Origin: Rhodothermales bacterium
GTDB taxonomy: Bacteria > Bacteroidota > Rhodothermia > Rhodothermales > UBA10348
Length of the DNA stretch: 64,000 bases
Assembly: GCA_028284865.1 (NCBI GenBank)
Contig: JANQQV010000018.1
Coordinates: 1-64,000 of the forward strand
Direction: 5' to 3'
Made by a program: the position numbers and the translations under genes. Position 1 is the first letter of the stretch. Each line of letters opens with the position of its first letter. The notes below the pieces were generated by a model that did no database searches, had not been told where the DNA came from, and was given only the letters and a program-made list of their open reading frames with translations. Shown piece by piece: positions 17,396 through 45,507 of the stretch.

Positions 17396-17419
17396 TCCAC
17401 AATCATCACTCTCCAGTCC

Positions 17420-18535: not shown

Positions 18536-19674
18536 TCAGTCTCTCAAAACCAATGCGATTCGAATGGCATCAGCTCATACTGGCAATTGTTCTCGTTGCC
18601 TTGATGCCGGGCTGTCACCACAGCGATAAACGTGTTTTTCTAGACGACCTCGAACAGATTCCCGTTTCTGACCTGTCTTCCAATTCGGATCCGGACCTGT
18701 ATTCGTCGACACTATTGGATTTTGAAGACTATTTCCGTCGATCACGGGAAGTCCGACTCTCGGACGACATACTCTTTGGAAATCGTATCAGCTTGGAGGT
18801 CGGACCGCAAGGTCAGTTCATTGTGATGGACACCGAAAAAGCAGGCCTATTCGACGAGTCGGGTGGTTTGATCGCACACGTCAGCCCTGAGAATTGCCAT
18901 CCTGGATTTGATTGGAACCCCGCAGTGGCTCGCTTCCTTCCGGATGGCGGGTTTCTCGTGACCGGATGGAGGTCCGAAGGGTTCTGGTTCGACGAACAAG
19001 GCGTTTGCACGTCAAGGTTTCCTCACAGGTATTCGTGGACACATATGGACATGACTGCAGACTCAACTGTTGTTTTTGCCCGCTTTTTAGGTCCTGAGGC
19101 GAATCTGATACGACTAGGGCCGCGACAGGCAAAAGTCGATACCGTCTTCAGCGGCACCAGCACTTTGATGCAAAACAATATGCCGGCGGGTGGTCTGGTA
19201 GCAGCCAAGGACGATATCCACTTTCTGGTAGTGGGTCACAGCCCATTCGTATACCGAATTGATGGCAGCCGAGTTGAAAAACTGGGATATCTCCCTGAAT
19301 ATTTTCGGCCCGTCGAACGCGATATCACCTCGGAGGAGCTGGCAAATCAGCAGGCATTCTTCGCTCGAGCCCAAGAGATTTTGAGTACAAACAGCATCAC
19401 GGGATACCTGTACGAGCTCAGCGATGATTATTTACTCATTCGTCACTCCAACGTCTCGCACACCAATCCTGACGAATCGAGAAGGCCTATTGGAGCTATT
19501 CACGTGATGGACAAAAGAGGAAATCCGGTAACAAGCGGCCAATTCTTTTTGATGGACCTCAATCCGGCGACATTCTCCCGCGGGTCCATGTTTGTTTTCG
19601 ACTATGGGCTAGAAAACGAAGGTGATGCATCGATCAATCCAAAAATCGTGGAATACAAGTTCATCAAGCGCTGA
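18532..19674 (+). CDS. Propeller-like lipoprotein, tandem family member 3
   Basis: A 380-residue paralog. The ATG at 18532 overlaps the previous stop; an alternative ATG at 18553 (MRFEWHQLIL) gives a tighter signal peptide with lipobox LMPGCH. The opening RVFLDDLEQIPVSDLSSNSDPD and the blocks NCHPGFDWNP, GGFLVTGWRSEGFWFDEQGVC, HSPFVYRIDGSRVEKLGYLPEYF and INPKIVEYKFIKR follow the family plan. It is more diverged than members 1 and 2. The spacing of the two conserved cysteines is preserved. Confidence 0.75.
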   Translation: MISLSKPMRFEWHQLILAIVLVALMPGCHHSDKRVFLDDLEQIPVSDLSSNSDPDLYSSTLLDFEDYFRRSREVRLSDDILFGNRISLEVGPQGQFIVMDTEKAGLFDESGGLIAHVSPENCHPGFDWNPAVARFLPDGGFLVTGWRSEGFWFDEQGVCTSRFPHRYSWTHMDMTADSTVVFARFLGPEANLIRLGPRQAKVDTVFSGTSTLMQNNMPAGGLVAAKDDIHFLVVGHSPFVYRIDGSRVEKLGYLPEYFRPVERDITSEELANQQAFFARAQEILSTNSITGYLYELSDDYLLIRHSNVSHTNPDESRRPIGAIHVMDKRGNPVTSGQFFLMDLNPATFSRGSMFVFDYGLENEGDASINPKIVEYKFIKR

Positions 19675-19737
19675 CCTTCGCACAGACTTTAATTTGCAAG
19701 CGTTGCGCCCCTTCGCTCACTAGTCTCCCAAAAAAGC

Positions 19738-20850
19738 ATGAGAACGATTGCACTATTCCTGGTCCTCATTTTGACCATCTCTGCATGCAGTTCAGAGCGG
19801 AAGGAAGTGTGGTTGGACTCCCTCGAGTTGATTCCGGTGAGCTCCGAGTCCTCTACTTCTGACCCTTCACTCTACTCGAATGAAGTACTGAGCTTTGATG
19901 ACCTCTTCGAAAAGGTCAGCGAGATTCAACCTTCGGATGAGATCGTTTTCGGAGATCAAGCTAACCCCGTCATTGGCCCGCAAGGACAGCTCCTGATGAT
20001 GGATGGAAAAATCGCCGGGCTGTTCAGCTCTAATGGCCAGCTCATCGCTGAAGTGACTCCGGTATCGTGCAATCCGGGGTATGAATGGACGCCGAGACGG
20101 GCGCAGTTCTTGCCCTCAGGCGGCTTTCTAATATTCGGCTATTCTCGCAGCGGGTACTGGTTCAACGACCAAGGAGAGTGTACTGGAGTTTTCCCGCACC
20201 AGCCATACACGAGGGCTGTCGTTTTCGCCCCCGACTCGAGCGTTTTCGCCGCCCAACTTTCAAACCCGGAGTGGCACCTCGTCAAGTATGGCCCGTCGCC
20301 GGACGATGAAGAAGTGCTTTTAAGCGGACCCAACACGCAACTTGCCACCCGAATCATCGCTGGTGGATTGACCAGAAGCGGTGACGGTGACCTCTTCATT
20401 TCGGCTTTTCATAGCCCATTCGTCTATCGATACAGAGCAGGAAAACTGGAGAAACTGGGGTATCTCCCAAGCTTCTTCGATGCGATTCCGAGCGATCTCA
20501 CGGAGGCCGAGGTCAATAGTTCAAACCTGGCCATGGAGAAAGTGAGGCAGGCCATAACAGATCACAGCTCCACAGGGACGGTCTTTCAGTTGGACCAAGA
20601 CAAAATCATGGTCAGCTTTATCAATGTAGACCACCCCTCCTCTCCGCCTGAAAGTCGCCTTCCAATCGCCTTGCACATCATGGACACGGATGGATACCCC
20701 ATCACGAAAGGCGTGCTTTTTCAAGAAGATATACGACCAGCTTACACGTCCAACGGATCCATCTATGCCGTTGAGTATGATGAAAGAGGATCGGCCGACG
20801 CCCTGCTGAATCCAAAGATTGTTGAGTATCGGCTGAAAGAAGGATTCTAG
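19738..20850 (+). CDS. Propeller-like lipoprotein, tandem family member 4
   Basis: A 370-residue paralog with lipobox TISACS. The family opening EVWLDSLELIPVSSESSTSDPSLYS, then SCNPGYEWTPRRAQFLPSGGF, GYWFNDQGECTGVFPHQPY and HSPFVYRYRAGKLEKLGYLPSFF match the other copies. The end is LNPKIVEYRLKEGF. It follows member 3 after a 63-bp gap that may hold its own promoter, whereas members 2 and 3 overlap. A fifth, distant relative is at 46754-47965. Confidence 0.75.
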   Translation: MRTIALFLVLILTISACSSERKEVWLDSLELIPVSSESSTSDPSLYSNEVLSFDDLFEKVSEIQPSDEIVFGDQANPVIGPQGQLLMMDGKIAGLFSSNGQLIAEVTPVSCNPGYEWTPRRAQFLPSGGFLIFGYSRSGYWFNDQGECTGVFPHQPYTRAVVFAPDSSVFAAQLSNPEWHLVKYGPSPDDEEVLLSGPNTQLATRIIAGGLTRSGDGDLFISAFHSPFVYRYRAGKLEKLGYLPSFFDAIPSDLTEAEVNSSNLAMEKVRQAITDHSSTGTVFQLDQDKIMVSFINVDHPSSPPESRLPIALHIMDTDGYPITKGVLFQEDIRPAYTSNGSIYAVEYDERGSADALLNPKIVEYRLKEGF

Positions 20851-21638: not shown

Positions 21639-24600
21639 GTGATTCCCCGGTTTATTGCTCAAACCACATTGTTGGTCACAGTCTTGGGAATTTGCACCAC
21701 TCTCAAGCTGAATGGTCAGTCGCGTCTGTTGGATTCACGGGACACCATGACTCAAGGAAACGGATTATCGTCCTCCACAACTCACTCAATGTTGCGGATG
21801 AATGACGGCCAGATAATCCTTGCCTCACAGGAAGGCGTCCAACTAAAAACATCTCGGCACGCCATTGAAGACTATTGGTTGGATTCGGCAACCACCATCT
21901 TATCGAGTGATTGGATAATTCGTCTCGTTCGAGTTTCCGAAGACGAAGCCTTGATAACGACTGGACCTGGGGAGACGTATCTCCTTGATTCCTCGACCAA
22001 GGAGACAAGCTATGTCGATACTGACGACTTGGAATGCAAAGACCCTGAATCGACATCGGCTCCTTCGGAATCCCAGCAGCACGAAGGATCAGAGGTGCTT
22101 TGGTCCAGTGTTGACGGTCTTTGGCTCATGCCAGACCTATATTCTCCTTGCCTTCGTTTCTCCAACCTTCCCGATGAGTACCGAGGGTGGGTCAGCACCT
22201 ACACCCGAGATTCAAGTGGTTGGTGGATTGGGACTCGAGAAGATGGTTTGTGGAGATTCGAAATCGACCAGAACCAGCCAACCAATGTTCTCAACAGCTA
22301 CAAGTTACCGGTTCCTGGAGGGCGGATTCGGTCACTGTGGAGCACGGGAGACGCCATCTGGATTGGTACCTCAGGTGCGGGGTTGCTGAAGTACGACTCG
22401 GAGTCTGGTACGGTTGTGCAGTTTAATAGGTACAATTCCGACCAAACCAAACTATCCGGTTCCATCGTTTCTGGCTTCGCCCAGCTTACAGACACGCACT
22501 TCTTGGTGGCCACAAGAAGGGGCCTCGATTTGATTGACTCCGATTCCAATCGGGCGATTCCGATTTCAGGACCGATTGATACTGAATCTGGCGAAACAAG
22601 ACCTGAATTAACTTTCCTCTACGTAGACGATTGGGGGACAATTTGGATTGGACATCAGGCAGGTATCACCCTCACTTCAATCCCAGCCATCCTTGCCTCA
22701 AACATTCGATTGTCAGAAATAGGTGCCGAAGGGCCGGTTTCTGAAATCGTAAAGCATCCTAGTACGGGACGCATCTGGCTAGGCACGAATGGGAATGTCA
22801 TTTCAGTCGATTCCTCTGGACAGGACGTTCGATTCGAAATGGATGTGGGTGCAGTCACGGGCTTCGTTGCGAACAACACAGTCACACATATTGAGTTCGA
22901 CGAGAATAGCACGCTGGTTTCGACAGGCTCACACGGGTTTGTCGTCCGAGATGGGCTAGGTAGTTGGAATTCTGTATCTCTGCATTCCACAGGCAACGAG
23001 TTGGATATTCCGGCAAGTGCAAATGCCATTCGGGATTTCGAAGAGTTCGAAGGCAATGTATTTACAGGGACTTCCGGAGCCGGCTTGATTGAAGTGTCTT
23101 CTTTTTCCCCGCTGAGAATAGCGAGAAGTTTCGACAAACCAGTTGCGACTATAACCGCTGTCTCACGCACCCACGATCACCGTCTGCTTGTTGGGACACA
23201 AACTAGAGGTGCCCATTGGCTTCATCGAGATTCGTTAGCACTTCGTCCGGCACTGCCTTGGTTGGATTTGAAAGAGATGGTGGACTATGGAATCGTCCAT
23301 GACGTTGCCTCTTCCTCAGACAATCTGCACTTCGCAGCGACGTCAGCAGGTCTCATTCATTGGAGAGCGGATGATTCATCGTGGAGCTATTGGTCGTCTG
23401 AGCATGGATTGCCAGCCGACCTAGTCAACAATGTCTTGCCAGTCGACTCAACGCTTGTGTGGTTTACTACCGAAAAGGCCGTTTGTAGATGGGATCGAGC
23501 AAAAGAGACTCCAAGCTGCCTTAGTGTTTTGGAGTCCAGTTCTTTGGAGTCTATTCAACCCAGAACATTGGAGTTGTCCCATGAAGAGTTGATTATCGGA
23601 GCCACGAATACGGTCAGAATGTTTCCGACTGGCCTCTTCGGGGCCGATTTTGTCAGACCTCCTTTGCCCCTCTCAACAAGCTTGAATAGCGATCAAGGAG
23701 ACTACGTGAGAGAACTCGAACACGGAGGGCAAACGACTTTGAACTCTTCCACAAGCGTTGTCACTTTAAACGCTGAGCTTTCAAAATTCGATGGAGCCGA
23801 AGAGGTCCTCATTCGCTATCAACTTCTCGATAGTGATCCCAACCCAATCTCAATCGCAGGTACTGTTCTCGAAGTCGTGTACCACGAACTGCCGCACCGC
23901 ACCGAACCCTACACATTCAATTTAGAGGTCCGCGATGGGTCTGGACTGATCCACTCGACGAGTTATTCCTTCATTTTGCCCCTCCCTTTCTGGCAAACTC
24001 TTTGGTTCATCGTTGCGACTGCGATGACCGTTGCTGGCGCAATCGGTTGGCAATTCAGAGCATGGTTCAACAGACGAAGAAGAGAGTCACGCGAGCTACA
24101 AATGGCATTGGCATCTGCACGCGAAAAAGAGCGAGGGGAACTGTCGCGCCAAATCCACGACTTGTCTCTTCAGAATCTTTACGTCGTCAAGATGCAGCTC
24201 GATCACTTGGGGAAAGCAGAAAACGAACGAATGGTTGCGAGCATATATCAATCATTGGACCGATCAATTGTAGAGCTGAGGCGCCTGTGTGGCGAATTAC
24301 TCCCACCCTCATTGGGTCCATTCGGACTTGAATCTGCTGTTCGATCTCTCGTTCAAGGAGTGGCATCTGCCAACTCCGACTTGCAAATCGATCTAAATAT
24401 TAAAGTCGGTGAAGAGCCAAGTACAGAGCATGCGCTCGCTGGCATTAGGGCCCTGCAAACATCTGTAGCAAATGTTCTCAGGCACGCGAAAGCAAATCAC
24501 CTTTCAATTCGCGTAAAAAGCGATAACTCCTTGCTGTCCATCGAGGTGAAAGATGATGGTGCTGGCTTCTCAGTCCCGACTTCGCTACTCACTCTTGCAA

Positions 24601-24734
24601 GAAATCGTCACTACGGATTGTTGGGGCTTCACGAATTAGCGAGACAGTTTGGCGGAAGCTTTGTTGTCGATTCCGAGCCGGGACGTGGCACCGTCCTGGT
24701 CTTCACGATTAGTACCTCTGAACAATCTCAATAA
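21639..24734 (+). CDS. Sensor histidine kinase with periplasmic propeller and Y_Y_Y-type domains (HisKA_3)
   Basis: A 1031-residue membrane kinase. The GTG at 21639 is the first start giving a signal segment (ending near LNGQS). The periplasmic part to about residue 640 has two-component propeller repeats (GLSSSTTHSMLRMNDGQIILAS, WWIGTREDGLWRF, IWIGTSGAGLLKY, TIWIGHQAGI, GLPADLVNNVLPVDSTLVWFTT). It is followed by a Y_Y_Y-like sandwich and a transmembrane helix (WQTLWFIVATAMTVAGAIGW). The cytoplasmic part has a HisKA_3 dimerisation domain with phospho-His at about 840 (SRQIHDLSLQ). The HATPase has the N-box Asn near 945 (SVANVLRHAKA), DDGAGF and HYGLLGLHELA. It belongs to the NarL-type kinases and pairs with the regulator 25 bp downstream. 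The ligand is unknown; the neighbouring lipoproteins are plausible partners or targets. Confidence 0.88.
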   Translation: MIPRFIAQTTLLVTVLGICTTLKLNGQSRLLDSRDTMTQGNGLSSSTTHSMLRMNDGQIILASQEGVQLKTSRHAIEDYWLDSATTILSSDWIIRLVRVSEDEALITTGPGETYLLDSSTKETSYVDTDDLECKDPESTSAPSESQQHEGSEVLWSSVDGLWLMPDLYSPCLRFSNLPDEYRGWVSTYTRDSSGWWIGTREDGLWRFEIDQNQPTNVLNSYKLPVPGGRIRSLWSTGDAIWIGTSGAGLLKYDSESGTVVQFNRYNSDQTKLSGSIVSGFAQLTDTHFLVATRRGLDLIDSDSNRAIPISGPIDTESGETRPELTFLYVDDWGTIWIGHQAGITLTSIPAILASNIRLSEIGAEGPVSEIVKHPSTGRIWLGTNGNVISVDSSGQDVRFEMDVGAVTGFVANNTVTHIEFDENSTLVSTGSHGFVVRDGLGSWNSVSLHSTGNELDIPASANAIRDFEEFEGNVFTGTSGAGLIEVSSFSPLRIARSFDKPVATITAVSRTHDHRLLVGTQTRGAHWLHRDSLALRPALPWLDLKEMVDYGIVHDVASSSDNLHFAATSAGLIHWRADDSSWSYWSSEHGLPADLVNNVLPVDSTLVWFTTEKAVCRWDRAKETPSCLSVLESSSLESIQPRTLELSHEELIIGATNTVRMFPTGLFGADFVRPPLPLSTSLNSDQGDYVRELEHGGQTTLNSSTSVVTLNAELSKFDGAEEVLIRYQLLDSDPNPISIAGTVLEVVYHELPHRTEPYTFNLEVRDGSGLIHSTSYSFILPLPFWQTLWFIVATAMTVAGAIGWQFRAWFNRRRRESRELQMALASAREKERGELSRQIHDLSLQNLYVVKMQLDHLGKAENERMVASIYQSLDRSIVELRRLCGELLPPSLGPFGLESAVRSLVQGVASANSDLQIDLNIKVGEEPSTEHALAGIRALQTSVANVLRHAKANHLSIRVKSDNSLLSIEVKDDGAGFSVPTSLLTLARNRHYGLLGLHELARQFGGSFVVDSEPGRGTVLVFTISTSEQSQ

Positions 24735-24759
24735 ATACACCCTCGGCCGGTTGAGTAAC

Positions 24760-25428
24760 ATGGAGCAAATTTCAGTCGTTGTGGGAGATGACCATCCTGT
24801 TTTTCGCTCAGGTATCGAGAGCATTGTCCGGTCCGATGCCAGGCTGCGCTTGGTTGGAAGCGGAGCGAATGGCAAAGAGGTTCTTGACCTGGTCCTTCAG
24901 ACAAATCCAGATGTTCTACTGCTCGATATGTCTATGCCGGAGATGGATGGTGTAGAAGTTTCTCGTTCTCTTCGTCGCGATAGGACGAAGACGAAGATAC
25001 TACCTTTGAGCGGACACGCAGAGAGAGAGTATGTTATCGGAGCATTAGAGGCCGGATGTAGTGGGTATCTGTTGAAAGATGAATCACCCGCTACTATCGC
25101 TACTGCCATTTTGCAAGTTTCGCGTGGAGGCGTTTTTGTTTCAAAACAACTGGTTAAGGGCGCACATGGAAACTTCGTCAAAATCGCACAGGGAGAACGT
25201 TTGCAACGCGATAGGTTGATTGCAGAACTCGGGATTACCCCGAGGTTACTAGAGGTGCTGATAGAGGTAGCCGAAGGGCTTTCAAACGAACAAATAGCTG
25301 ATCGTTTGTTTAAATCGCCGCATACCGTCAGAAATCAAGTGGAATCTCTCAAATCGATTGCAGGCGTTAATACTCGACCTTCATTAGTTGCCTGGGCCTG
25401 GCGAAATAGATTTACAGCTCCTTTCTGA
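24760..25428 (+). CDS. NarL/LuxR-family response regulator
   Basis: A 222-residue regulator. I chose ATG 24760 (MEQISVVVGDDHPVFRSG), 25 bp after the kinase stop; the longer frame from 24649 overlaps the kinase ATPase domain. The receiver has acidic Asp10-Asp11, phosphoacceptor Asp56 in LLLDMSMPEMDG, Ser84 in PLSGH and Lys106 in YLLKDE. The C-terminal helix-turn-helix is LuxR-like (LGITPRLLEVLIEVAEGLSNEQIADRLFKSPHTVRNQVESL). LTPRE is changed to ITPRL, but the rest of the motif is intact. It is the natural output partner of the upstream HisKA_3 kinase, probably controlling island or envelope genes. Confidence 0.88.
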   Translation: MEQISVVVGDDHPVFRSGIESIVRSDARLRLVGSGANGKEVLDLVLQTNPDVLLLDMSMPEMDGVEVSRSLRRDRTKTKILPLSGHAEREYVIGALEAGCSGYLLKDESPATIATAILQVSRGGVFVSKQLVKGAHGNFVKIAQGERLQRDRLIAELGITPRLLEVLIEVAEGLSNEQIADRLFKSPHTVRNQVESLKSIAGVNTRPSLVAWAWRNRFTAPF

Positions 25429-25887: not shown

Positions 25888-26166
25888 ATGAGATTCACCA
25901 TGAACTACTCTCGATCAAAGAAGGGTTTCTCCTACCTAGCCGTGATTTTGATTCCGGTCTTCGGATTCATTTCCGGTACAGCGATATCCTCCTCTTTCAC
26001 ACTCCCCGCTGAGGCAAGGCCGGACTGCAATAATATGGTTTGCGACTGGAACGAAGAAGAAACTCCACCCTGGCATTGCGACTGGAACGTGGATACTAAA
26101 TGCAATCTTTACGAGCAAGGCAACGAGTGTGGAACCGATGACACCTGCAATCCTGTAGGCATGTAG
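25888..26166 (+). CDS. Small Cys-rich secreted peptide (cassette 1)
   Basis: A 92-residue precursor (or 88 from the second ATG at 25900). A basic n-region (NYSRSKKG) and a hydrophobic segment (FSYLAVILIPVFGFISG) are followed by a leader end resembling LPAEA, then a mature part of about 45 residues beginning RPDC. This mature part has six cysteines and a doubled CDWN motif (VCDWNEEE, HCDWNVDT), and ends GTDDTCNPVGM. The layout, a small exported peptide directly before a propeller lipoprotein, recalls the NVEALA peptides of Bacteroides, but the sequence is not clearly in that family. A hairpin separates it from the propeller gene. Even cysteine number suggests disulfide bonding. Function unknown. 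Confidence 0.65.
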   Translation: MRFTMNYSRSKKGFSYLAVILIPVFGFISGTAISSSFTLPAEARPDCNNMVCDWNEEETPPWHCDWNVDTKCNLYEQGNECGTDDTCNPVGM

Positions 26167-26175
26167 ATCATCAAT

Positions 26176-26218
26176 TTGGCGCCGGGTGGGCGAATAATTC
26201 TCGCTCCCCCGGTGCCAA
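26176..26218 (+). promoter_or_regulatory. Long hairpin between peptide and propeller genes
   Basis: TTGGCGCCGGG (26176-26186) pairs with CCCGGTGCCAA (26208-26218), and inner GGGCGA pairs with TCGCTCCC-side bases around an AT-rich loop. It starts 10 bp after the peptide stop. There is no clear U-run, so it may be a leaky terminator or an RNA-stability element that raises peptide output relative to the genes downstream. Confidence 0.55.
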
Positions 26219-26240
26219 TAATTGTACCAGACCAGCAGAC

Positions 26241-27386
26241 ATGACGAAAACTCGAATGAAAGGGCTTTGGGTTGTGATTACATCCTGTCTATTGATGACT
26301 AGTTGCGCTGCCAACAAAGATAATCACGACAGTAATGACCACCCCAACATCTTATCAATTGCCGAGTCACGTTCGAACATCTTCTCGATCAGATCTGACT
26401 CGGCCAAATATTCTGAAGACCCTGGCATTCAGTCAGCCTACCAGGCTCTAATCTATAATTACAACCAGTCAATCGATTTAGATTTTGGAGAACGTCAGTC
26501 AGTATATCTAGGAGAAATAACAAAAATATCCTTTTCCTCGAAAGGATTAATGTTTGCACTTGATCATTCGTTTGCAACAATTCATGCGATTGATAGGGAT
26601 GGACACTATATCAAAAGTTTAGGATCACCTGGATCTGGTCCCACAGAATTATTTCGTCCAACTTCATTCGGTATCATTGGCGATTCACTTCTGGCGGTTG
26701 CTCAAGGAAATCGCACTATTAAAGTCCTTCGAATAGGTGCAGAGTACAATCTAGAATTTCTGAATGAATTCGAGCTGGACTACAATCCGGAATCAATTGA
26801 AGTTTGTCACGACCGATTAGTGGTTAGAGGCATGAATCCAAGTGGTGAGCCTGAGCCGACACTAATACATATGTATAATATACACGGTGAGCTACTCTTG
26901 TCCTGGGGAAAGATTTATGATGCTGAGACATCGATCATGAGAAACAGATTGTCGTCAGGCAGAACCATAACCTGCGACGAGAATGGTATTAGCATTATTT
27001 ATGAGTACATACCAGCGATTAATAGATATGATAATGATGGTGCAGTTCAATGGAGTGCCGAAGTACAAGATTACTTGCCCATCGACATTCGCATGGAAAA
27101 AGGTCGGAGTGGGAACGATGAACTGAGATTTGGGCGGCCCTTACCAGGGATGCTATTTACAAGGAACGTTGTATCCCTACCGTCCGGTATCATCGTCCTT
27201 CAATCCTTAAGAGTTCAGGAAGGCTCACGCCCTGCAATCATCACTTTTCTACTGAATCCCTCAAATGGTGCCTCGGGTGTCATTGCGGAAAGTGAGATTC
27301 CGTGGGTGTACGCAAGTAAGTCCTTGGACGCCTTTGCTTTTCTTTCGACGAATCCGGAGCCTCTAATCACCTTCAGCTACCAATAG
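26241..27386 (+). CDS. Six-bladed beta-propeller lipoprotein (cassette 1)
   Basis: A 381-residue lipoprotein, lipobox LLMTSCA (Cys at about 22). After a linker the propeller begins around residue 80 with YLGEITKISFSSKGLMFALDHSFATIHAIDRDGHYIKSLG. It contains the family's hallmark turn GSPGSGPTELFRPTSFGI (the GxGPGEF-type motif of Bacteroidota six-bladed propellers), then LLAVAQGNRTIKVLRI and later blades. It sits between the Cys-rich peptide gene and the thioredoxin-like gene, the same order as in cassette 2. A role in binding or sensing the peptide at the outer membrane or in the periplasm is inference. Base composition is AT-rich. Confidence 0.75.
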   Translation: MTKTRMKGLWVVITSCLLMTSCAANKDNHDSNDHPNILSIAESRSNIFSIRSDSAKYSEDPGIQSAYQALIYNYNQSIDLDFGERQSVYLGEITKISFSSKGLMFALDHSFATIHAIDRDGHYIKSLGSPGSGPTELFRPTSFGIIGDSLLAVAQGNRTIKVLRIGAEYNLEFLNEFELDYNPESIEVCHDRLVVRGMNPSGEPEPTLIHMYNIHGELLLSWGKIYDAETSIMRNRLSSGRTITCDENGISIIYEYIPAINRYDNDGAVQWSAEVQDYLPIDIRMEKGRSGNDELRFGRPLPGMLFTRNVVSLPSGIIVLQSLRVQEGSRPAIITFLLNPSNGASGVIAESEIPWVYASKSLDAFAFLSTNPEPLITFSYQ

Positions 27387-27401
27387 TTTACGTTGACTAA
27401 A

Positions 27402-27995
27402 ATGAGCAACACACGGCTTGTACTGATCTTGTTTCCGATATCAGTCCTCCTTGGAGTTCTGTGGTATTCGTTTTCATCGAGTGACGCGAATGGCCATACC
27501 GAGATTGAAAACTCGACTATCTACACTCCAAAGCCACGCTTTGACTCAGGGTGGCAAGTTGCCCTCATATACATAGGTTCAGCAACTTGCGAGGCTTGCA
27601 GTATGCCTGGGGTCAGTGGGAACGTCGAGCGCGCAAAAATTGCGATACAAGAACGGAGCATTGAGGAGGGGTTGATGTTCTCAGCAATCGGTGTCGCGAT
27701 CGATTGGGATGCAGAAGAAGGGCTGGGACATCTTCGTCTGAGTGGAGCATGGGACGAACTTGTGAGCGGGGCAAATTGGATGAATTCCGCAGCATATAGG
27801 TATATCTGGGAGAAATCATATGCCCCTGCCTCTACCCCGTCAATCACTGTACTGGCTAGAAAAGTACTCATTACGGATGGAGGACCTCAGGTCTCCGAGC
27901 AAAGAGTTCTTAAACAGGTTGTAGGAGTCCACCAATTAAATGAATGGTCAGAAAGTGGATTTGATCACCTGCCGGCTGTCATACCTGGTTCGTAA
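27402..27995 (+). CDS. Membrane-anchored thioredoxin-like CxxC protein (cassette 1)
   Basis: A 197-residue protein with an uncleaved or lipid-free N-terminal membrane anchor (RLVLILFPISVLLGVLWYSF) and a periplasmic thioredoxin-like domain. The strand VALIYIGSATCEACSMPGV places a CEAC redox motif at the usual end of beta-1, and APASTPSITVLA supplies the cis-Pro strand. The central helix region is longer than in TlpA. ATG 27402 is used; TTG at 27393 is possible. It ends cassette 1. A redox role for the Cys-rich peptide next door is inferred from context and from the matching order in cassette 2. Confidence 0.65.
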   Translation: MSNTRLVLILFPISVLLGVLWYSFSSSDANGHTEIENSTIYTPKPRFDSGWQVALIYIGSATCEACSMPGVSGNVERAKIAIQERSIEEGLMFSAIGVAIDWDAEEGLGHLRLSGAWDELVSGANWMNSAAYRYIWEKSYAPASTPSITVLARKVLITDGGPQVSEQRVLKQVVGVHQLNEWSESGFDHLPAVIPGS

Positions 27996-28204
27996 TTGAA
28001 TTAGTAGCAACAACCACGCGTAAATTAGTCAGCTAATGAACTTCAACGGCATGGTTAGTCCTCTTACGCTTTTCTTGCATAGAACACTAAAAATTCACCC
28101 GTCGGATTACCGCTAGTTAATAAGAACCCATACTCCGAAACAGGACAGAACGACGCCGAAGTCACCCTACTGGTGAAGTGCTGATCTGCGATTTCTCGAG
28201 AGCA

Positions 28205-29100
28205 TACATTGATTAGTCTGGGAATGATGTCGCTGAAACCGCTATTAACGGCCCTAATAACGACGACGTCACTTTACCGACAATAACAGTCACTCCCAGC
28301 CCCGAGCACAGTCGGAGATATCCGCATAATATCGTCATGGAACGCGTTTCAATTTCGCTTGTTAGGGAGGGTGTGATTAAAAGATGTAGGCGCCCTCGCA
28401 TGGCAACGCGCGTCAACACCGACGAGTTGCCGTGAGGTCGACGCTCCTGATCATGTCGTAAATGGTCGGTCAACATACGGGGTCATATAAGGATATCCCA
28501 ACATTTGAGATAGATCTGACAAGCGCGCCTATTCCAAGACTGGCACCGACCCAGAACAAGGACAGCACCAGAGCCCGACTTATTCCATGGGCACACTGAG
28601 TAAGACAATCAACTCGAGTTTCCAGGACTAATATGCTGATATGGTTACCAGATACACCAGTAACAGCGCCGCCATCATCACCCAACCAAAGGCCTTCTTG
28701 ACCTCGTCAGTGAATAACGTAAATAGGTTCTGCTTGATGATCTCATATCCTCAGGGCGTAGATAAGCCTTCATTTCCCGCTCAATGAACTTTCTTGCCAT
28801 TAGGTTCGGCCCGCAGAAGTCCACATTGAAATAGCGGGTGTACTGTTGCTCCCCCGCACAATTCTGAATGGCCGCTCCAAGAAAGTGTATCGTCAGCCAG
28901 GCCTGCCACTTGAATCCTCAAACGCCTCCACAGGTGAGGGCTGCACGATCTCACGGTCCACGACCCAATCAAAGGCTCCGACCACTTAATGGCTAACAGA
29001 TAGCTGAACACCCCCGTCGACTTGGGAGTAGCTGTATGAGAATTAAACTCGTGAATATGAGTTCAGCACATCCGCGACATACCAGGCCGTGTTAAAGGCT
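28205..29100 (-). pseudogene. Decayed 3' end of an RND efflux pump gene
   Basis: No intact frame, but fragments in shifting minus-strand frames match in order the C-terminal 300 or so residues of the intact pump at 31969-35190. The pairs are IQVAGLADD versus IQLAGLAEY, FWVGASLGIGALVRSISNVGIS versus the FIWTGANFAEGAFIG region, RRPHGNSSVLTRVAMRGRL versus LRPHGQPSVLMRLAVRERL, and GLGVTVIVGKVTSSLLGPL versus GLAVTVIGGLVSSTVLGPL. Nucleotide similarity is also evident (for example GTACTGTTG near 28850 and GGCCTTCTTGAC near 28691). Many stops and indels show long decay. It abuts the 3' end of the cassette 2 thioredoxin gene. Confidence 0.78.
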
Positions 29101-29119
29101 ATTGGCTTCACTAAACACC

Positions 29120-29659
29120 CTATAGGGCATTGGGGTTTGGGTTACTAACACGATGTACAATGTCATTCATCATTTTGTCGTCCATCAACCCGATCCACGC
29201 TTCTTCAACGGTATTATCTCCCCCCACCAGAAGAACAGTCGGAGTACTTAAGATTCCCAATCTACCCAGACCCATTCGTATTAAGCGATCATGACTCACA
29301 TTGTTTTCCGTTAACATACGCCTCTGCTCTAAGAGCAGCGGTTCGGTTAAAGAAGAGTCAACTGCAATCACTAAAGACGCCTCAAACGCACCGTTTTTCT
29401 TTTGTTTTGACAATTCACTGTAAAATGGCAGGCTTCGTCCACAATAAATACACGTTGGACTAACGATGAATAGCAATTTATGATCTCTTCCATCTGGCAG
29501 ATAGCCTGATGGTATTTCTAAACCAACCAATTGGGAATTGAAGGACTGATCTGCACCAACCGATTGTCCATTGTTAAACTTTAACAAAAGGACTGCCCCC
29601 AATGCTAGGAGAAGCACTGCGTGAATGGTTATTTCAGTATGTTTATTTATGGTCACCAC
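29120..29659 (-). CDS. Membrane-anchored thioredoxin-like CxxC protein (cassette 2)
   Basis: A 179-residue protein with an N-terminal transmembrane anchor (ITIHAVLLLALGAVLLLKF). The periplasmic redoxin fold has LLFIVSPTCIYCGRSLPFYSEL carrying a CIYC active site, and LGILSTPTVLLVGG carrying the cis-Pro, in the TlpA/ResA style. It follows the propeller gene by 33 bp on the same strand, as the last gene of the peptide-propeller-thioredoxin order. The sequence is well diverged from the cassette 1 protein outside the fold motifs, so conserved gene order is meaningful. Likely a thiol-disulfide oxidoreductase; the target is inferred to be the neighbouring Cys-rich peptides. Confidence 0.72.
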   Translation of the reverse strand: MVTINKHTEITIHAVLLLALGAVLLLKFNNGQSVGADQSFNSQLVGLEIPSGYLPDGRDHKLLFIVSPTCIYCGRSLPFYSELSKQKKNGAFEASLVIAVDSSLTEPLLLEQRRMLTENNVSHDRLIRMGLGRLGILSTPTVLLVGGDNTVEEAWIGLMDDKMMNDIVHRVSNPNPNAL

Positions 29660-29692
29660 CAGCTGTTCTATGTATTACGCCTTCACTGCCTG

Positions 29693-30784
29693 TCAGAAAC
29701 TAAATTCATAAGCCGTGACACTCGTGTCCGTCACTTGAGAATACATAATACCGTCATAAACACTCGTATAAGAAGTTCCAAAAGGCAACATAATCGTTTC
29801 TTTATAACTACCCGTGTTCACCTCGTACACATCGATGTTTGCCTTCCCACCGTCTGGCAACTCTGTTCTGAGTAGGACATACAGATATTTTTCATCAACG
29901 CTTATAGGACCATTTAAATAAGAGGATCTCGGTACCAGGTTGGGCAACTCCGGTTTTTCTACTTGCGGCCCTGACTCGCTAAAATAGTAGTCAGGAGTGG
30001 AACGCACATATTCTATTTGATAATTGGAGTCCATCTTTACAATAATCGGATATAGCGAGGAGACATAAATCGTTCCATTGTCTTCAGTAGACCTCAGATA
30101 TCCGTTCAAAAGCAGACTTTCCGCTATCGACTTTGTCTTTGGAAAAGCATCAAGGACCTCTACTCCTTCTTCAGTATTCACAATCATCGGAGAAGTACCC
30201 GCAAATACAATAAACATTTGATCTCCTGTTTGTGGCTGCACGGACATTCGTTGCAATGTGCCACCTACCTCTACATTAACAGACTCTAAATACTCTCCCT
30301 GTTCATCAAAAGCGCTGACTCTGTTTAATGAGGAGTCAAGTACATAAACCTTCTTTTCTGGCCCGATGCTCAGATCAATCGGGTTATAAAATTCTCCTGG
30401 GCCCTCACCAGTTCCATTCCCGATTTGCAGCAGAAGGTTACCTGACAAATCGTAATACTTAATCCGATAGTCACCATAGTCGAATACATATACACCGTTG
30501 GAGTCTGCCATCAGGCCTCCAGGTCTATAGAGAATATCACCAGAAGGGTCACTGTCTCCAATAGTAAATTTCTCCTTTAGTGGAGTACTCCGGAATTGTC
30601 GGTCTTGCAAACTTTGATGGATCAGTTGTTGCTCCCAAACATTCGGGATGCCAACCATGTCGGCTTGAGTATGGGAATCCGAGTCTGGCCCGTGCGAGTT
30701 AGCCAGGCCCGAATCTGATCTCTGACATCCTACGGTTGCGACAATAATCAGAGTTGCAGCAACAATATTGCCGACTGGAACCAT
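29693..30784 (-). CDS. Six-bladed beta-propeller lipoprotein (cassette 2)
   Basis: A 363-residue lipoprotein with lipobox VATVGCQ (Cys at about 20). Propeller blades include GDILYRPGGLMADSNGVYVFDYGDYRIKYYDLSG, the hallmark GNGTGEGPGEFYNPIDLSIG, and KKVYVLDSSLNRVSAFDEQGEYLESV. The last blade ends SVTAYEFSF. The GEGPGEF turn and D-x-S/R repeat ends place it in the Bacteroidota six-bladed propeller group. It lies between the two Cys-rich peptide genes and the thioredoxin-like gene, mirroring cassette 1 on the opposite strand. Confidence 0.8.
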   Translation of the reverse strand: MVPVGNIVAATLIIVATVGCQRSDSGLANSHGPDSDSHTQADMVGIPNVWEQQLIHQSLQDRQFRSTPLKEKFTIGDSDPSGDILYRPGGLMADSNGVYVFDYGDYRIKYYDLSGNLLLQIGNGTGEGPGEFYNPIDLSIGPEKKVYVLDSSLNRVSAFDEQGEYLESVNVEVGGTLQRMSVQPQTGDQMFIVFAGTSPMIVNTEEGVEVLDAFPKTKSIAESLLLNGYLRSTEDNGTIYVSSLYPIIVKMDSNYQIEYVRSTPDYYFSESGPQVEKPELPNLVPRSSYLNGPISVDEKYLYVLLRTELPDGGKANIDVYEVNTGSYKETIMLPFGTSYTSVYDGIMYSQVTDTSVTAYEFSF

Positions 30785-30833
30785 GATAACAATGGTTGAA
30801 ATAACAATAACACCCTGGAGGGCATCCTAGTGT

Positions 30834-31073
30834 CTAAATGGGGATACCGTCAGAATTAAAACACATGCGGTAGCTCATGTGACTTTCTTCATCCAGGCAC
30901 AAATATGTTGCGCACGGTTCCTGACCACCAAGACAACCAAGAGCATAGCACGCGAAGAACCCCTCGCATTCTGGAATCGCTTCTGCTGAAGCATTTATCG
31001 GTCCGATAATGCCTGCTGAAAACAAGGCTAGGATCACGATGGTCAACGAGAGTAATAGTCGTATCGTTTTCAT
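30834..31073 (-). CDS. Small Cys-rich secreted peptide a (cassette 2)
   Basis: A 79-residue precursor starting at ATG 31073 (MKTIRLLLS); the longer frame from 31187 overlaps the neighbouring peptide gene. The signal segment RLLLSLTIVILALFSAGIIG leads to INASAEA and a mature part of about 48 residues beginning IPEC. It has six cysteines in the pattern P-x-C-x5-C-x4-C-x-GGQE-x-C-x4-C, then a sixth near the end (YRMCFNSDG). The second peptide shares P-x-C, the C-x4-C step and the GGQE block, so the two are paralogs. Function unknown; a secreted bioactive or signalling peptide is possible. Confidence 0.65.
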   Translation of the reverse strand: MKTIRLLLSLTIVILALFSAGIIGPINASAEAIPECEGFFACYALGCLGGQEPCATYLCLDEESHMSYRMCFNSDGIPI

Positions 31074-31113
31074 TTTCAATTGCAGTGTATAGTCCATGAG
31101 ATAGAAGAATGAA

Positions 31114-31374
31114 TCAATAGTTATGAAAACACCCAGCAATAGTGGTACTAGGGCCATTTTCAGTGCAAGGTATGTCTTCGGAATCACAGCAAAAAATGAT
31201 TACTCCGCAGTTTTCCTGACCACCATCACACTCAAAACTTGCACACGTCCCTTGGCACACTGGAACGGCGGCGAACGCTAGCTTATTTGCTCCGAAGGTG
31301 GTAAAGCTAACCACCAGTGCCAAACCCAAAATCATTACAAACGAGATTCCGAGTCTTGTAAAAGGATTGTTCAT
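31114..31374 (-). CDS. Small Cys-rich secreted peptide b (cassette 2)
   Basis: An 86-residue precursor starting at ATG 31374 (MNNPFTRLG). A hydrophobic segment (ISFVMILGLALVVSFTTFG) is followed by a leader end near AFAA and a mature part beginning VPVC. It has eight cysteines: P-x-C-x3-C-x4-C-x-GGQE-x-C-x5-CC, then two more (DIPC, IAGC). It ends in FHNY. It is the first gene of cassette 2, 40 bp before peptide a. The larger frame from 31446 is possible but its extra residues do not look like an export signal. No known family recognised. Confidence 0.65.
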   Translation of the reverse strand: MNNPFTRLGISFVMILGLALVVSFTTFGANKLAFAAVPVCQGTCASFECDGGQENCGVIIFCCDSEDIPCTENGPSTTIAGCFHNY

Positions 31375-31968: not shown

Positions 31969-34900
31969 TTACACAGAAGCAGATAGTCCATGTATTTGTT
32001 TATATGAAACGCCAGCACACGCCACCAGCGGCCCCAAAACTGTTGACGACACCAATCCACCAATTACCGTCACGGCCAGCCCCAACCAGAAGTCCGAGTT
32101 GTCGGGAAAGGCAATCATGGGAAGCATGGCGACCACGCTTGTCAACGTAGTCGTGATCATTGGACGCAGTCGTTCTCGCACCGCCAGACGCATTAATACC
32201 GAAGGCTGTCCATGCGGGCGAAGCTCTCGGAATTGTCGATATCGATCCGTCAAGAGAATCGCGTCGTTGACGGAAATGCCAACCATCAAGATGGTCCCGA
32301 TGAAGGCTCCCTCTGCGAAGTTTGCCCCGGTCCAGATGAAGGCGAGCGCCAGACCCACACCCGCCATCGGGACGCTGAGCATCACGATTAAGGGCAACCT
32401 CCAAGACTCGAAAACCGACGCCGTGACCAAATAGACAAGGATCAGGGTGGCCAGCATCACCCATCCAAAGGCTTCCTTGACTTCATCCGTGAAGAAGGAA
32501 TAGCTGCTTTGCCTGATCTCGTATCCGACTGGGGTTTGGTAGGCCTCTAACTCTCGCTCTATGAAGGTGGAAGCCATCTGATTGGGCCCCCGAAAATCGA
32601 CGCTGATGTATCGGATGTACTGTTGGTCTTCCCTGACGATACTGGTTGGTCGCTCGACCACATTGTATTCCGCCAAACCCGCCAGTTGAATTTGCAGGCT
32701 GTCCCGGACAGGCAACGGTTGCACCACAACGCGATCCATGTCCCGATCATAGGCTCCTTTCACTTCGAGCCGAACGGGTAACTGAATGTCGCCGTCCATG
32801 TCCGAATAACTGAATGGGACGCGAGAACGGAAGTACGGACGCAGTGCACCAGCTACTTCCATGGCCGATACACCGCTTCTTGCTTCTGCGTCGGCATCCC
32901 AATCAATCGAGAGCACTTGCCGAGCTTGCTGGAAGCGGCCGGAATAGCTTGAATTGCCATCGACACCAGCCACTCTTCTACTTCTTCCGTGTAGATATCG
33001 AGAGAAATCGGCCACCATGCGGTCCAAGTCTTCGTAGTTCGGACCAACCGCTTCGAGTCGATATCCGCTTTGACTCGACCCGAACCCGCTGGAGTACCCA
33101 TTTTGAACGAGGCCGTATACAGAAATGTAGATCCCGCCCACGTTGACAGCTTGCGATATCAAACGCTCTCTGAGGACGTAGGGCCCGCTGGTCAAAAGCG
33201 CCTCTGGGTAGAACTGAACCCTCATGGAAGCTGACGATTCTCGCACGTCAACCAGCGTTCTGGAAACAGATTCGGACGCCAACGCCGTGTTTTCGAACTC
33301 CGCCATCAGCGTATCGGCTCGCCCAATCGGATGCCCCGGAGGAAAGGTCATGCGCACTGTTACCTCAGGCCGCCTCTCCCAATTCCATCCTGCACCGAAG
33401 GACACCTCACGCGTGAATTTGCGCATCACGCCTCCAGCCGCCGGTTCGAGCCACTCACGAGTCCACTCAACCGGCCCCCAATCCATCACGTCATTGTAAA
33501 GCGAAGCCAGTCGCACGCGAGGGTCGTCAGCTGATAATTCTGTCGAATCGGCAGTTACCAGTCGCGTTGGTATCTCCCAAATCGGAACGCCCAGCAGCAA
33601 AATCAGCGCCAGGAGCGTGATTTTGGGGAATCGAGCCGCCCATTTGTACGGAACAGCGCTCCATCTGCGCAGCCGACCACGTCGCCGTTCATGCGCAGGC
33701 ACCACCGGAAGAAAACGTCCGACGACGGGGACGAGGAGCGCGGCCGTCACCAGAGAGGCCGTCATGGTCAGGGCGACCAAGATGCCAAACGGAAGGAACA
33801 GCTCCTGCAGGTCGCCGCTGAGGTAGACCAAGGGCAGCATCACTGCAATTGTCGAAAGCGTACCTCCCACTAAGGGAAGCCAGACCGTCTTCAACGCCGC
33901 CCACTCGCCTCCCTTTCCTGGTCGCGCCTGAAGCTGCTCGACAACGACGACCGCATTGTCCACCAAAAGCCCAAAAACCAGAACCAGGCCGGCGATGGTC
34001 AAGAGGTTCAGAGTCAGCCCAAGTGGACCCAAAAGTAGAAATGCCATGCTGAGAGAGACGCCCACGCTGAACAGTACGACCAGGGTGGCCCGCAAATTCT
34101 GAAGCATGAACAGGAGGACAAAAACAACCAGCAGGAGTCCGAGTCCGCCCCGAGTCTGGACATCGCGAAGCTGCTCGCGAATTTCTTCGCTTCGATCATC
34201 GGCAACCAGCAGCCGCACATCTGAAGGCAGTTCATCACGCAGCTGCTCAATCGAAGCGTGAATCGCTTCCGCAACCTCAATCATATGACTCGCACGGGCG
34301 CGGTCGATCCGCATCGTGATCACCGACTGCCCATCGATTCGGCTGATCGTGCGAACGGGTGCGGGTCCCGTTGAAATCTCGGCCACATCCGATAGTCGGA
34401 TGCGCTCCCCGTTGCGCCCGCCGATCACCAAGTTGTGGAGGTACGCAGAGCGCTCCATGGACGCCCTGAACAACAGAGCCGATCGGCCTTTCCCGCGCAA
34501 GCTCCCGTAGGCCTCGTCTCTCAGTTCCTGCCTGACACTGAACAAGATTTCATCAGGACCCAGGCCATATGCGGTCAGCTTCTCCGGATCAAGAGAGATG
34601 AGCACCTCGCGAACGGTTCCTCCAATTACTTCAATTTCAGCGATCCCACCGATGCTGAGTAGTCGTGCCTTTACCGTTCGCTCGGCAAGCGTTCGCAACT
34701 CGTCGGAGGACATGGGGCCAATAACCTGTAACGACATGAACCCCTGTTCGTCCTTGAGCTCCTCAGGGATTTGCTTGGTCAAGCGCGGCGTGACACGGTC
34801 CGGCAGTACATCTCTAAGGATCGTCAGCTGCTCGTTCAGCTCTGCCACATACAGACTTACTTCGGTTTCCTCGTGTATGGAAACCGTGACCTGCGCCGTT

Positions 34901-35190
34901 CCTTCTCTCGAGAAGCTTCGGATTTCGTCCGTCCCTGGGACCCGTTGTACCGCTCGTTCAATGGGCGCAGTTACGTAGCGCTCCATCGACCGTGGCGAGG
35001 CGCCTGCCCAGGAGGCGGAGATCGTGACCGAAGGCAATTCGATTTGCGGCGCCCATTCAAGCGGGACGGATCTCAGCGCGAACAAGCCTGCAAGGAAGAT
35101 GGCCGCTGACCAAGCCAAAACACCCACCGGACGGCTCAACCACGCGGCAAACCAGGCAGGAGTGCTATCTGTTTGTCGCCTGTCAGGCAT
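31969..35190 (-). CDS. RND efflux transporter, inner-membrane pump subunit A
   Basis: A 1073-residue resistance-nodulation-division (AcrB/HAE-type) transporter. It has an N-terminal transmembrane helix (VGVLAWSAAIFLAGLFALRSVPLEW), a large periplasmic loop, and a TM cluster with the proton-relay region LVFGLLVDNAVVVVEQ. In that region Asp-Asn replaces the Asp-Asp of AcrB, as in many HAE1 relatives. A second periplasmic loop is followed by a C-terminal TM cluster (ILMVGISVNDAILLTDRY, RPMITTTLTSVVAMLPM, TVLGPLV). Its start overlaps the end of the second pump gene by 8 bp, so the two are probably co-translated as a heteromeric pump. A decayed copy of its 3' third lies at 28205-29100. Confidence 0.92.
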   Translation of the reverse strand: MPDRRQTDSTPAWFAAWLSRPVGVLAWSAAIFLAGLFALRSVPLEWAPQIELPSVTISASWAGASPRSMERYVTAPIERAVQRVPGTDEIRSFSREGTAQVTVSIHEETEVSLYVAELNEQLTILRDVLPDRVTPRLTKQIPEELKDEQGFMSLQVIGPMSSDELRTLAERTVKARLLSIGGIAEIEVIGGTVREVLISLDPEKLTAYGLGPDEILFSVRQELRDEAYGSLRGKGRSALLFRASMERSAYLHNLVIGGRNGERIRLSDVAEISTGPAPVRTISRIDGQSVITMRIDRARASHMIEVAEAIHASIEQLRDELPSDVRLLVADDRSEEIREQLRDVQTRGGLGLLLVVFVLLFMLQNLRATLVVLFSVGVSLSMAFLLLGPLGLTLNLLTIAGLVLVFGLLVDNAVVVVEQLQARPGKGGEWAALKTVWLPLVGGTLSTIAVMLPLVYLSGDLQELFLPFGILVALTMTASLVTAALLVPVVGRFLPVVPAHERRRGRLRRWSAVPYKWAARFPKITLLALILLLGVPIWEIPTRLVTADSTELSADDPRVRLASLYNDVMDWGPVEWTREWLEPAAGGVMRKFTREVSFGAGWNWERRPEVTVRMTFPPGHPIGRADTLMAEFENTALASESVSRTLVDVRESSASMRVQFYPEALLTSGPYVLRERLISQAVNVGGIYISVYGLVQNGYSSGFGSSQSGYRLEAVGPNYEDLDRMVADFSRYLHGRSRRVAGVDGNSSYSGRFQQARQVLSIDWDADAEARSGVSAMEVAGALRPYFRSRVPFSYSDMDGDIQLPVRLEVKGAYDRDMDRVVVQPLPVRDSLQIQLAGLAEYNVVERPTSIVREDQQYIRYISVDFRGPNQMASTFIERELEAYQTPVGYEIRQSSYSFFTDEVKEAFGWVMLATLILVYLVTASVFESWRLPLIVMLSVPMAGVGLALAFIWTGANFAEGAFIGTILMVGISVNDAILLTDRYRQFRELRPHGQPSVLMRLAVRERLRPMITTTLTSVVAMLPMIAFPDNSDFWLGLAVTVIGGLVSSTVLGPLVACAGVSYKQIHGLSASV

Positions 35191-38100
35191 CCACCCTTAC
35201 CACCAGCGAGTAGAGCACGGGGACCACAATCAAGGTCAACAACGTCGCGGCAACCAGGCCTCCGGTGATGACAATAGCCATAGGAGCACGCAGCTCAGCG
35301 CCTGGGCCGAGCCCAAGGGACAACGGCAACAATCCAAACGCCGTTGTGACCGTCGTCATGATGATCGGACGAAGACGATCCCTTCCGGCTTCCATAATGG
35401 CCGGCATGAGCTTGACCCCGGTCGCTCGGCGTTGGTTGATGAAATCAACTTTGACAATGGCATCGTTGACCACAATACCTATCAAGACGACACATCCGGT
35501 AAGGCTCATCAAATTGACCGTCTGTCCCGTCACAAGCAGAATGAGAGCCACGCCGGAAAGCGCCAGCGGAACGGTCAACAGAATGACCAACGGTTGAACT
35601 AGGCTTTCGAACTGCGCCGCGAGAATCAGATAAACCAGCAGGATCGACAACAGGAAACTGATGCCGACAGCACGAAGGCTGTTTCTGAATGCCTCATTCG
35701 CTCCACCGACTCGTAGGCGCACGTTCGTCGGAAGCGCGGGCACGAGCTGGGCTTGGATGGCGTCGGTGGCATCATCGAGATCTGACTGGGCACTTACGTC
35801 GGCAAGGATGCGAAGGATGGGAATCTGGTCACCTCGCATCAACGAAGCGGGAAGCAGCACGTACTCGGCCTTCAGGAACGTCGATAGCGGTAGCAGTCCC
35901 CCTTGTGTCGGAACGGGTTCGGCCAGCAACGCCTCAACGGTTGCTTTCCGAGGTGTACGCAGAAGAATCGGAATCTCTTCGTTCACCGACCGCAAATCGG
36001 TAGCATGGGCGCCGCTGGCCGCTGCCTCCAACTGGGTCGTGAGTTGGGCCGATGATACGCCGTACCGAGACATGGTCTCTCGATCGAAGCTAAGTCGGTA
36101 AGCCGGCACTTCGAAATCGTCGGACAGCCGCACGTTGACCAGCTCTGGCATCTGCTCCAGCGAGCTCAACGCCGTCGACAACACCGGTGCCCCATCCTCT
36201 CGTCGCTCCACAAGCAGGTCGATAAACAAATCTGATTCTTCGTTCGAAAGCAGCATCTCCAATTGCGTGCGCTCTGAGGCCACCTCAATCTGCACATCCT
36301 CTGGGGTTGTCAATGATTGAATGGCTGAAATCGCCTCTTCCAAATCAACACCGGGCGAAAGCATAGCCAACAAATCCGCCTCGTACGGCGGACGGGGATC
36401 GATCTGCAGGCGAGATTCGTCGCGCTCACCGATGTCTGATAGAATGTGCTCAAAGTCAGGCGAATCCAAGGCAAAGGCTTCGAATGAACGTGTGCGCTCT
36501 GAGACCAGCTCCAAATCCGCGTCCGCAGGAAGGGCGAGGTGAACGTTGATCCGCCCTTGGTTGGTTTGAGGCACCACTTCCCGATTGACATTCATGCCAA
36601 CCCAGCCACCCAGCATGAGAAATAGCAACGCACCCACACTCACGGCCAGGCGATGCTTGAGGGCACCAGACAACAGTGTCTCATAGAACCGAAGCACCGG
36701 GCCTCCCGTTCGAGAATCTGAGTCTTCTGAAAGGTCTTGATCCTCTGCACTGGTCCAAGCGGCGACCAACGGGACCACGGTCAAACCAACCAGCAGTGAT
36801 GCAGAGAGAGAGGCCACGATGGCTAGTGACTGATCAGCAAACAGTCTCCCGGCCAGCCCCTCAACCAACGTCAACGGCAAAAAGACAGCTACGGTGGTTA
36901 GCGTACTGGCCGTGATGGCCCCGGCTACTTCTGATGCCCCCTGAATGCCGGCTTCTCTCTCGCTCAAACCACCTTCCCGTAGCCGAGCTATGTTTTCGAC
37001 TACGACGATGGCATTGTCCACCAGCATCCCCACTCCGAGGGCCAGCCCGGACAACGAAATCAGGTTGAAGGAGATGTCCATCACCTCAAACAAAATGAGG
37101 GATATCCCCAATGAAAGGGGAACGGCCAGACCAACAGCCAGCAGTGCCCTCTTTCGTCGCAGAAACAACAAGAGCACCAGCAAGGCGAGCAAGCCACCAA
37201 AAAGCACCGCCTGAGTCAAGCCGCTGATGGCTTCCTCGATAAAAACACTCTCGTCGACGACGACATCTAAGCGGATGTCATCCAGGTCTTCCTGCAGTTC
37301 GAGCAGGGCTTGGCGCACCTCTTCGGACGCACGGACGGTATTTGCATCTGGTCGACGTTCCACCAACAGCATCAACGTTTCGGTACCGTCGTACCGAACC
37401 AGTCCACGCCGTTCATCTACTCCCTCTCGAACCTCTGCGAGATCTCGGAGTCGGATCGGGCGATCCCCGCTCCAGGACACAACGGTCGACGCAATGTCCT
37501 GTACGGTTTCGAATTCACCGGTCACTTCAACCGAGTAGCGAAAAGGTCCCCGCCTGATCGATCCCCCAGGCTGTGCGACGTTTGCAGTACGCAGCGCCGA
37601 TTCCAATTGCACCAGATTGACACTATGCGCTGCGAGTGCGGCAGGGTCGAGGCGAACATCAATTTGCCGATCGAATCCGCCCGTCACGATCACCCGAGCC
37701 ACGTCCCGCAGTTGCTCAATTCTTCGGGCAACGACTTCCCGTCCGAGCTGCTTGAGCGCACTCAAGTCTGCCTCTAACCCCTCAGACCCACCATCGTCTC
37801 GTGACAACGCCACGATCATGATGGGTTTGTCGTTTGGATCTATCCGGAGTACGATCGGGCGATCCGATTCCTGTGGCAAGGAGTCTCCAAGTCGATCCAG
37901 CTGCTCGCGGACATCGAGCATGGCCAGATCCAGGTCTGTATTCCAGCCAAAGTCCATCCGAACCATGCTTCCGCCGAGCATGCTCCGTGACGTCAGGCGT
38001 TGTAAGCCGTCAGTTCCGGAAACGGCTTCTTCTATTCGCTCGGAAATAGCTCGTTCAACCCGCTCGGGCGGCACATCCGGATAGGGGGTCCATACGACAA

Positions 38101-39483: not shown

Positions 39484-39693
39484 GGGGATGTGCGTTTGGC
39501 TTTCCTGAAAAAACGCAATCGGAGGCGAAAGCGAAAGGTAGTAGAGTTCCCTGTTGATTGATCCCTCAGATGGTCAGGAGTTTCCCGCTATTGGGGCTTT
39601 AGTACAATCACACCAACGACCCAGTGGTCGTCGAAACTGTTGACCGCAATGCGTTAATTGTCCATCCGCATAGACAAGCTCTGGTTATTCCCC

Positions 39694-40824: not shown

Positions 40825-40857
40825 TCGGCGTCGATTCGCCGACAGAATCGAACAGCC

Positions 40858-45506: not shown

Positions 45507-45507
45507 A

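Follow-up and report, generated by a model that had tools for sequence, protein, structure and literature searches.

A recurrent gene cassette of cysteine-rich exported peptides, a propeller lipoprotein and a thioredoxin-like protein in the Rhodothermia

Among published systems, bacteroidetocin regions come closest to one half, the peptide plus oxidoreductase, of the gene cassettes described here. These lie in a stretch of 64,000 nucleotides (contig JANQQV010000018.1, positions 1 to 64,000; the window) from the 3.48 Mb genome of a Rhodothermales bacterium, and each encodes one or two cysteine-rich exported peptides, a propeller lipoprotein and a thioredoxin-like protein (redoxin), in that order. 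The cassette system is real and recurrent, with dozens of loci within one class. Like the cassettes, bacteroidetocin regions encode a small secreted cysteine-containing peptide beside a thiol oxidoreductase, whose gene is required for full activity (PMC6671954). Unlike the cassettes, they have a double-glycine leader, an ATP-binding cassette (ABC) peptidase-transporter and a protein with five transmembrane segments, and they lack a propeller; their peptides have four cysteines, one of them with a net charge of +2 (PMC6671954). Pediocin PA-1 shares with the cassettes a dedicated thiol-disulfide oxidoreductase for the peptide, PedC, which increases pediocin potency, but differs in its Gram-positive ABC export, its cationic peptide and the absence of a propeller lipoprotein (PMC4919988).

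The other half of the cassette resembles the NVEALA (PF14055) loci. In the one Bacteroidales genome used for comparison (G424), short exported cysteine-containing NVEALA peptides stand directly upstream of six-bladed propeller lipoproteins (PF17170, PF15869 or PF13970), as in the cassettes. This layout occurs there several times, and genes for a signal peptidase, for a CTSC protein or for DUF1573 lie nearby. At one such locus (L125, 15201-18224) a peptide, a propeller, a Peptidase_S26 protein and a CTSC-containing protein of 203 residues follow one another in a row. The original prediction for this DNA had drawn the same parallel, which holds for the layout but not for family membership: NVEALA peptides belong to another family and have fewer cysteines, and no PF14055 match turned up in the window's own genome, nor in Pfam scans of the window peptides and of peptide families A and C. 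A profile search of G424 returned neither cassette redoxin family. In the open-access literature we found no mention of NVEALA, no described function for it (DUF5128, PF17170, PF15869 and BF3164 gave nothing related) and no account of the three-part unit, which had been put forward as undescribed.

Re-checking of open reading frames (ORFs) and spacing confirmed all seven genes predicted in the two window cassettes. Cassette 1, on the plus strand, comprises peptide C (25888..26166), propeller lipoprotein 1 (26241..27386) and redoxin 1 (27402..27995; the start is the ATG at 27402, with a TTG at 27393 as a possible alternative). Cassette 2, on the minus strand, comprises peptide A (31114..31374), peptide B (30834..31073), propeller lipoprotein 2 (29693..30784) and redoxin 2 (29120..29659). 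The intergenic gaps (75, 16, 41, 50 and 34 bp) are operon-like. The genome has one cassette of each type, on opposite strands, flanking a decayed fragment of a resistance-nodulation-division (RND) permease gene (28100-29090, minus strand) that corresponds, in several frames, to residues 775-1063 of the protein encoded at 31969-35190.

Both cassette types recur elsewhere. Redoxin 2, used as sole query over 60 relatives, gave four distant matches. At two of these, one in G016 (same family, different genus) and one in G040 (a different family), two cysteine-rich peptides, a propeller lipoprotein and the redoxin stand in the same order. A wider search brought the total to about 24 type 2 loci. Across the 245 genomes of the class, peptide A occurs in 12 and redoxin 2 in 14, and all 12 are among the 14; the models of families A and B were built from peptides beside redoxin 2, and only the absence of matches elsewhere is independent. 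A propeller lies downstream of every one of the 19 peptide A matches, and 16 of them have a same-strand type 2 redoxin no more than 4 kb away. Across 395 genomes of the phylum nothing convincing of type 2 was found elsewhere. Three phylum matches to peptide A outside the order (E 0.003-0.008) were taken as chance.

For type 1, a non-circular search with redoxin 1 alone as query found homologs in 29 of 114 genomes of the order, up to eight per genome. A propeller is directly upstream of 32 of the 40 full-length type 1 redoxins in the order and, by manual reading, adjoins 14 of 16 outside it, 46 of 56 overall (binomial p ~1e-68, assuming a 2% background). Family C occurs in 17 of the 245 class genomes, and for about 34 of 41 peptide C matches the coordinates place a type 1 redoxin no farther than 4 kb away. 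The redoxin 1 family extends, with propellers and six-cysteine peptides, into a second order (family f16). In one genome of that order, locus L203 (4561-5297) has family C peptides three times in tandem ahead of a single propeller-redoxin pair. The sequence of peptide or peptides, propeller and redoxin is fixed for both redoxin families and all three peptide families, in six families of the order and in the second order. Fixed gene order in dozens of loci argues that the linkage is selected, as the original prediction had supposed from two copies.

That prediction also described the cassettes as strongly diverged. Their order is indeed the same, and they are two separate lineages, not copies of one another. 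Propeller 1 scores 1e-46 with a type 1 and 3e-16 with a type 2 hidden Markov model (HMM), and propeller 2 scores 8e-55 with the type 2 and 8e-15 with the type 1 model, both models having been built without window sequences. Assignments that differ by at least 30 orders of magnitude in E-value place the cassettes in separate lineages. A recent duplication was ruled out, the two propellers being 13% identical and each belonging to its own lineage.

Both propellers exceed the cut-off of PF17170 (6-bladed beta-propeller) and carry a lipobox cysteine. The fold was checked by AlphaFold2 (AF2) and Foldseek on propeller 2, for which AF2 gave a six-bladed propeller (predicted local distance difference test 75, predicted template-modelling score 0.76) with low confidence for residues 1-45 and 266-287. 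Its nearest structural matches are NHL domains, that of Brat among them (E=7e-14), and the model also resembles the exported protein BF0058 of B. fragilis (4raa). Further genes resembling propeller lipoproteins, four at 16292-20850 and about eight at 39658-49193, stand in the window without cysteine-rich peptides.

The window peptides carry Sec-type signal peptides. Mature peptide C has about 50 residues and six cysteines (C-x4-C ... C ... C ... C ... C); it scores E=9e-9 with the family C HMM, a value that is not independent since the peptide is itself among the seeds. Family C follows the pattern CExDxC..C..[N/G]C[D/N]..C.T..C, and about 40 such relatives, the closest at L154, precede type 1 propellers. 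Mature peptide A (family A HMM 1e-16) has eight cysteines, in a spacing that throughout its family ends CC..ED.PC..C. Peptide B (family B HMM 6e-16; family pattern PECG..C.AVGC.GG..CA) has six when mature, where its family usually has eight. Families A and B are remotely related to each other. None of the three peptides has a Pfam match or a meaningful NCBIfam match, and families A and B have no PDB match, the methylamine dehydrogenase light chain included.

The number of cysteines is even in 62 of 64 mature peptides, a count that includes related, non-independent sequences and omits four truncated or frameshifted/chance matches; members of family B with fewer cysteines have dropped two. The mature peptides are therefore very probably disulfide-bonded, judging from their sequences. 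Their median net charge of -2 to -6 marks them as acidic, and the alignments of A, B and C contain no conserved Trp, His or Met, with about one of each per peptide. In most comparisons the ratio of nonsynonymous to synonymous substitution rates (dN/dS) is below 1, which indicates that these short ORFs are coding; the clearest case, a pair from family C, gives 0.09.

Both redoxins have an N-terminal membrane helix (residues 3-26 in redoxin 1). Redoxin 2 has a SPTCIYC motif, with CIYC as its active site, and a TPT cis-Pro; motif and cis-Pro are in register with StoA/ResA/TlpA-like profiles. Its family profile resembles StoA and ResA and matches StoA (3erw, E=1.8e-4), and 10 of 16 family members match Thioredoxin_2. 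Membrane anchor, CxxC, cis-Pro and profile similarity are thus shared with StoA, ResA and TlpA, but the family is separate and tied to the cassette, and three members have lost the second cysteine (CPYS or CPYT). Redoxin 1 belongs to a new family with GSSxC motifs and TPQ at the position expected for cis-Pro; the window copy has GSATCEAC and a cis-Pro-like TPS. Among 44 aligned members the active site is CxxS in 25, CxxA in nine and CxxC in nine. Unexpectedly, the second active-site cysteine is gone in 34 of 43 type 1 redoxins, the window copy (CEAC) retaining it. The proposal of a CxxC disulfide catalyst fits type 2 and the window's redoxin 1, but not these 34 or the three single-cysteine type 2 members. 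Because a single-thiol redoxin cannot complete a dithiol cycle, its role would shift from oxidase to mixed-disulfide partner. ERp44 and AGR2, single-cysteine proteins of the eukaryotic endoplasmic reticulum that resemble protein disulfide isomerase and have a thioredoxin fold, engage cysteine-rich secretory cargo through mixed disulfides and offer a lead. Dithiol type 1 copies that stand apart from any cassette, for example in family f12 and the phylum outlier G306, may represent the ancestral form.

Cysteine number and redoxin motif tend to go together in type 1: eight-cysteine peptides are found in four of five CxxC cassettes and peptides with six or seven cysteines in 22 of 26 CxxS/A cassettes (Fisher p=0.01, from few independent events). 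Cassette 1 of the window, with six cysteines and CEAC, is an exception. Type 1 propeller and redoxin distances correlate at 0.85, indicating that the unit is inherited together. With the propeller controlled for, peptide distance follows redoxin distance (partial r 0.38, p=0.002). In type 2, redoxin 2 is constrained (dN/dS mostly 0.14-0.3); the peptides and propellers evolve fast, with dN/dS up to about 1 and some values above.

On balance we lean towards the cassette being a dedicated unit that makes and handles exported disulfide-rich mini-proteins. One or more precursors of 75-100 residues, as their sequences suggest, would be exported by Sec and cleaved after AxA-like sites, yielding acidic peptides of 45-60 residues with three or four disulfides. 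The membrane-anchored redoxin, facing the periplasm, would exchange disulfides with its own peptide. Type 2 redoxins would work as conventional enzymes with the dithiol CPYC. The type 1 redoxin, usually with one cysteine, would form a mixed disulfide only, and would isomerise or hold the peptide until pairing is correct; net oxidation would come from the genome's general VKOR system, and a VKOR gene, present in 30 of 31 relatives, can supply it. The six-bladed propeller lipoprotein would be the cognate partner that binds the peptide once folded, whether to receive, carry or neutralise it. More speculatively, the peptide, working at the surface of the cell or on nearby cells, might be a signal or an antagonist. 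A part for the redoxin in maturation is likely; that the propeller serves in binding is plausible. The proposal draws on the fixed gene order, the even cysteine numbers, the purifying selection, the joint inheritance of the unit, the covariation of peptide with redoxin and the common VKOR, and it has precedents in the oxidoreductases of bacteroidetocins and pediocin.

Several observations weigh against this proposal. (i) Coevolution of peptide and propeller beyond shared inheritance was sought in type 1 and not found (partial r -0.16); together the partial correlations favour coupling of peptide and redoxin and give the propeller as receptor, an idea of the original prediction, no specific support. 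(ii) For redoxin 1 a thioredoxin fold is putative and deduced from motifs: its family has no match in Pfam, NCBIfam (none meaningful) or PDB, single-sequence AF2 gave no usable model, and profile comparison with redoxin 2 (hhalign) gave a weak match, in the right register. (iii) No dedicated exporter is encoded in the cassette.

The neighbourhood offers one candidate for export. A related operon of a membrane fusion protein and two RND permeases (MFP-RND-RND) is found next to cassettes in four genomes, which belong to two families (G000, G016, G079 and G078; window 31969-39483 and loci L014, L170 and L166). The MFP is 52-55% identical and the second permease 50-60% identical in G016 and G079; at L170 a propeller ORF overlaps the start of the MFP-side gene by 4 bp. 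Export of the peptides through this pump is possible. Most cassettes have no adjoining RND operon. Directly upstream of cassette 1 (21639-25428) are a large sensor histidine kinase and a LuxR-type response regulator; as a conserved partner this two-component system was rejected, since it does not adjoin other cassettes. No known RNA elements were found, and promoter and terminator scans did no better than shuffles. An ORF at 59389-60639 resembles a tyrosine recombinase or integrase in a by-eye reading of its sequence.

Two of the rival explanations differ in how the peptide is finally used. It might be a bacteriocin-like weapon, with the propeller giving immunity or self-protection and the redoxin serving maturation, a variant of the last step that we regard as possible but doubtful. 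Cassettes are patchy in distribution, missing from all six other genomes of the window's genus yet present in up to eight copies per genome elsewhere, and broken copies are frequent; their guanine-plus-cytosine content averages 8 points below the flanks, with 29 of 31 loci on the low side (p=5e-9). The rapid divergence of peptides and propellers in type 2, the two-peptide arrangement and the bacteroidetocin precedent point the same way. However, the acidic peptides are unlike typical cationic bacteriocins, neither an ABC peptidase-transporter nor a double-glycine leader was found between or beside the window cassettes, searches of viral contigs and plasmids found no cassette, and peptide and propeller give no coevolution signal.

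Somewhat less probable, and in our judgement unlikely, is that the peptide is a pheromone-like ligand and the propeller its envelope receptor. The gene pair looks like ligand and receptor, NVEALA-propeller pairs are similar, and cassette 1 is adjoined by paralogous propeller arrays and by the two-component system, whose sensor region is large and N-terminal. Yet that system is absent beside other cassettes, no cassette protein has a signal-transducing domain, and here too the lack of a coevolution signal between peptide and propeller counts against the idea.

Very unlikely is the assembly of a redox enzyme, with the peptide as small and the propeller as large subunit, as for MauA and MauB with MauD, or a metal chelator serving an RND pump. 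Mau operons also combine a small cysteine-rich protein, a propeller and a thioredoxin-like protein, and the same RND operon stands beside cassettes in four genomes; but the peptides lack conserved Trp, His or Met, families A and B do not match the methylamine dehydrogenase light chain, even cysteine numbers fit disulfides, and RND operons are missing from most cassettes. A chance clustering of ordinary envelope genes with cysteine-rich ORFs, conceivable where propeller genes are as abundant as in the window (more than a dozen), is refuted by the co-occurrence and selection tests, given conserved peptide families with fixed cysteine spacing, even cysteine numbers, dN/dS below 1 and a constant order in dozens of loci.

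What had been a two-copy curiosity becomes a recurrent, testable system. Three families of peptides and one of redoxins are new; Pfam contains none of them, and those compared with the PDB had no match there. Tentatively, it may constitute an undescribed class of system, built from exported disulfide-rich mini-proteins, a single-thiol membrane-anchored redoxin that would keep or isomerise them through mixed disulfides and a cognate propeller lipoprotein that would bind them, and this system may spread as a cassette through the class and mediate interactions between cells. The cassettes offer a concrete starting point for work on unexplained pairings of peptide and propeller in Bacteroidetes, those at NVEALA loci among them, and for asking how a redoxin with a single thiol could work on exported bacterial peptides rich in disulfides.

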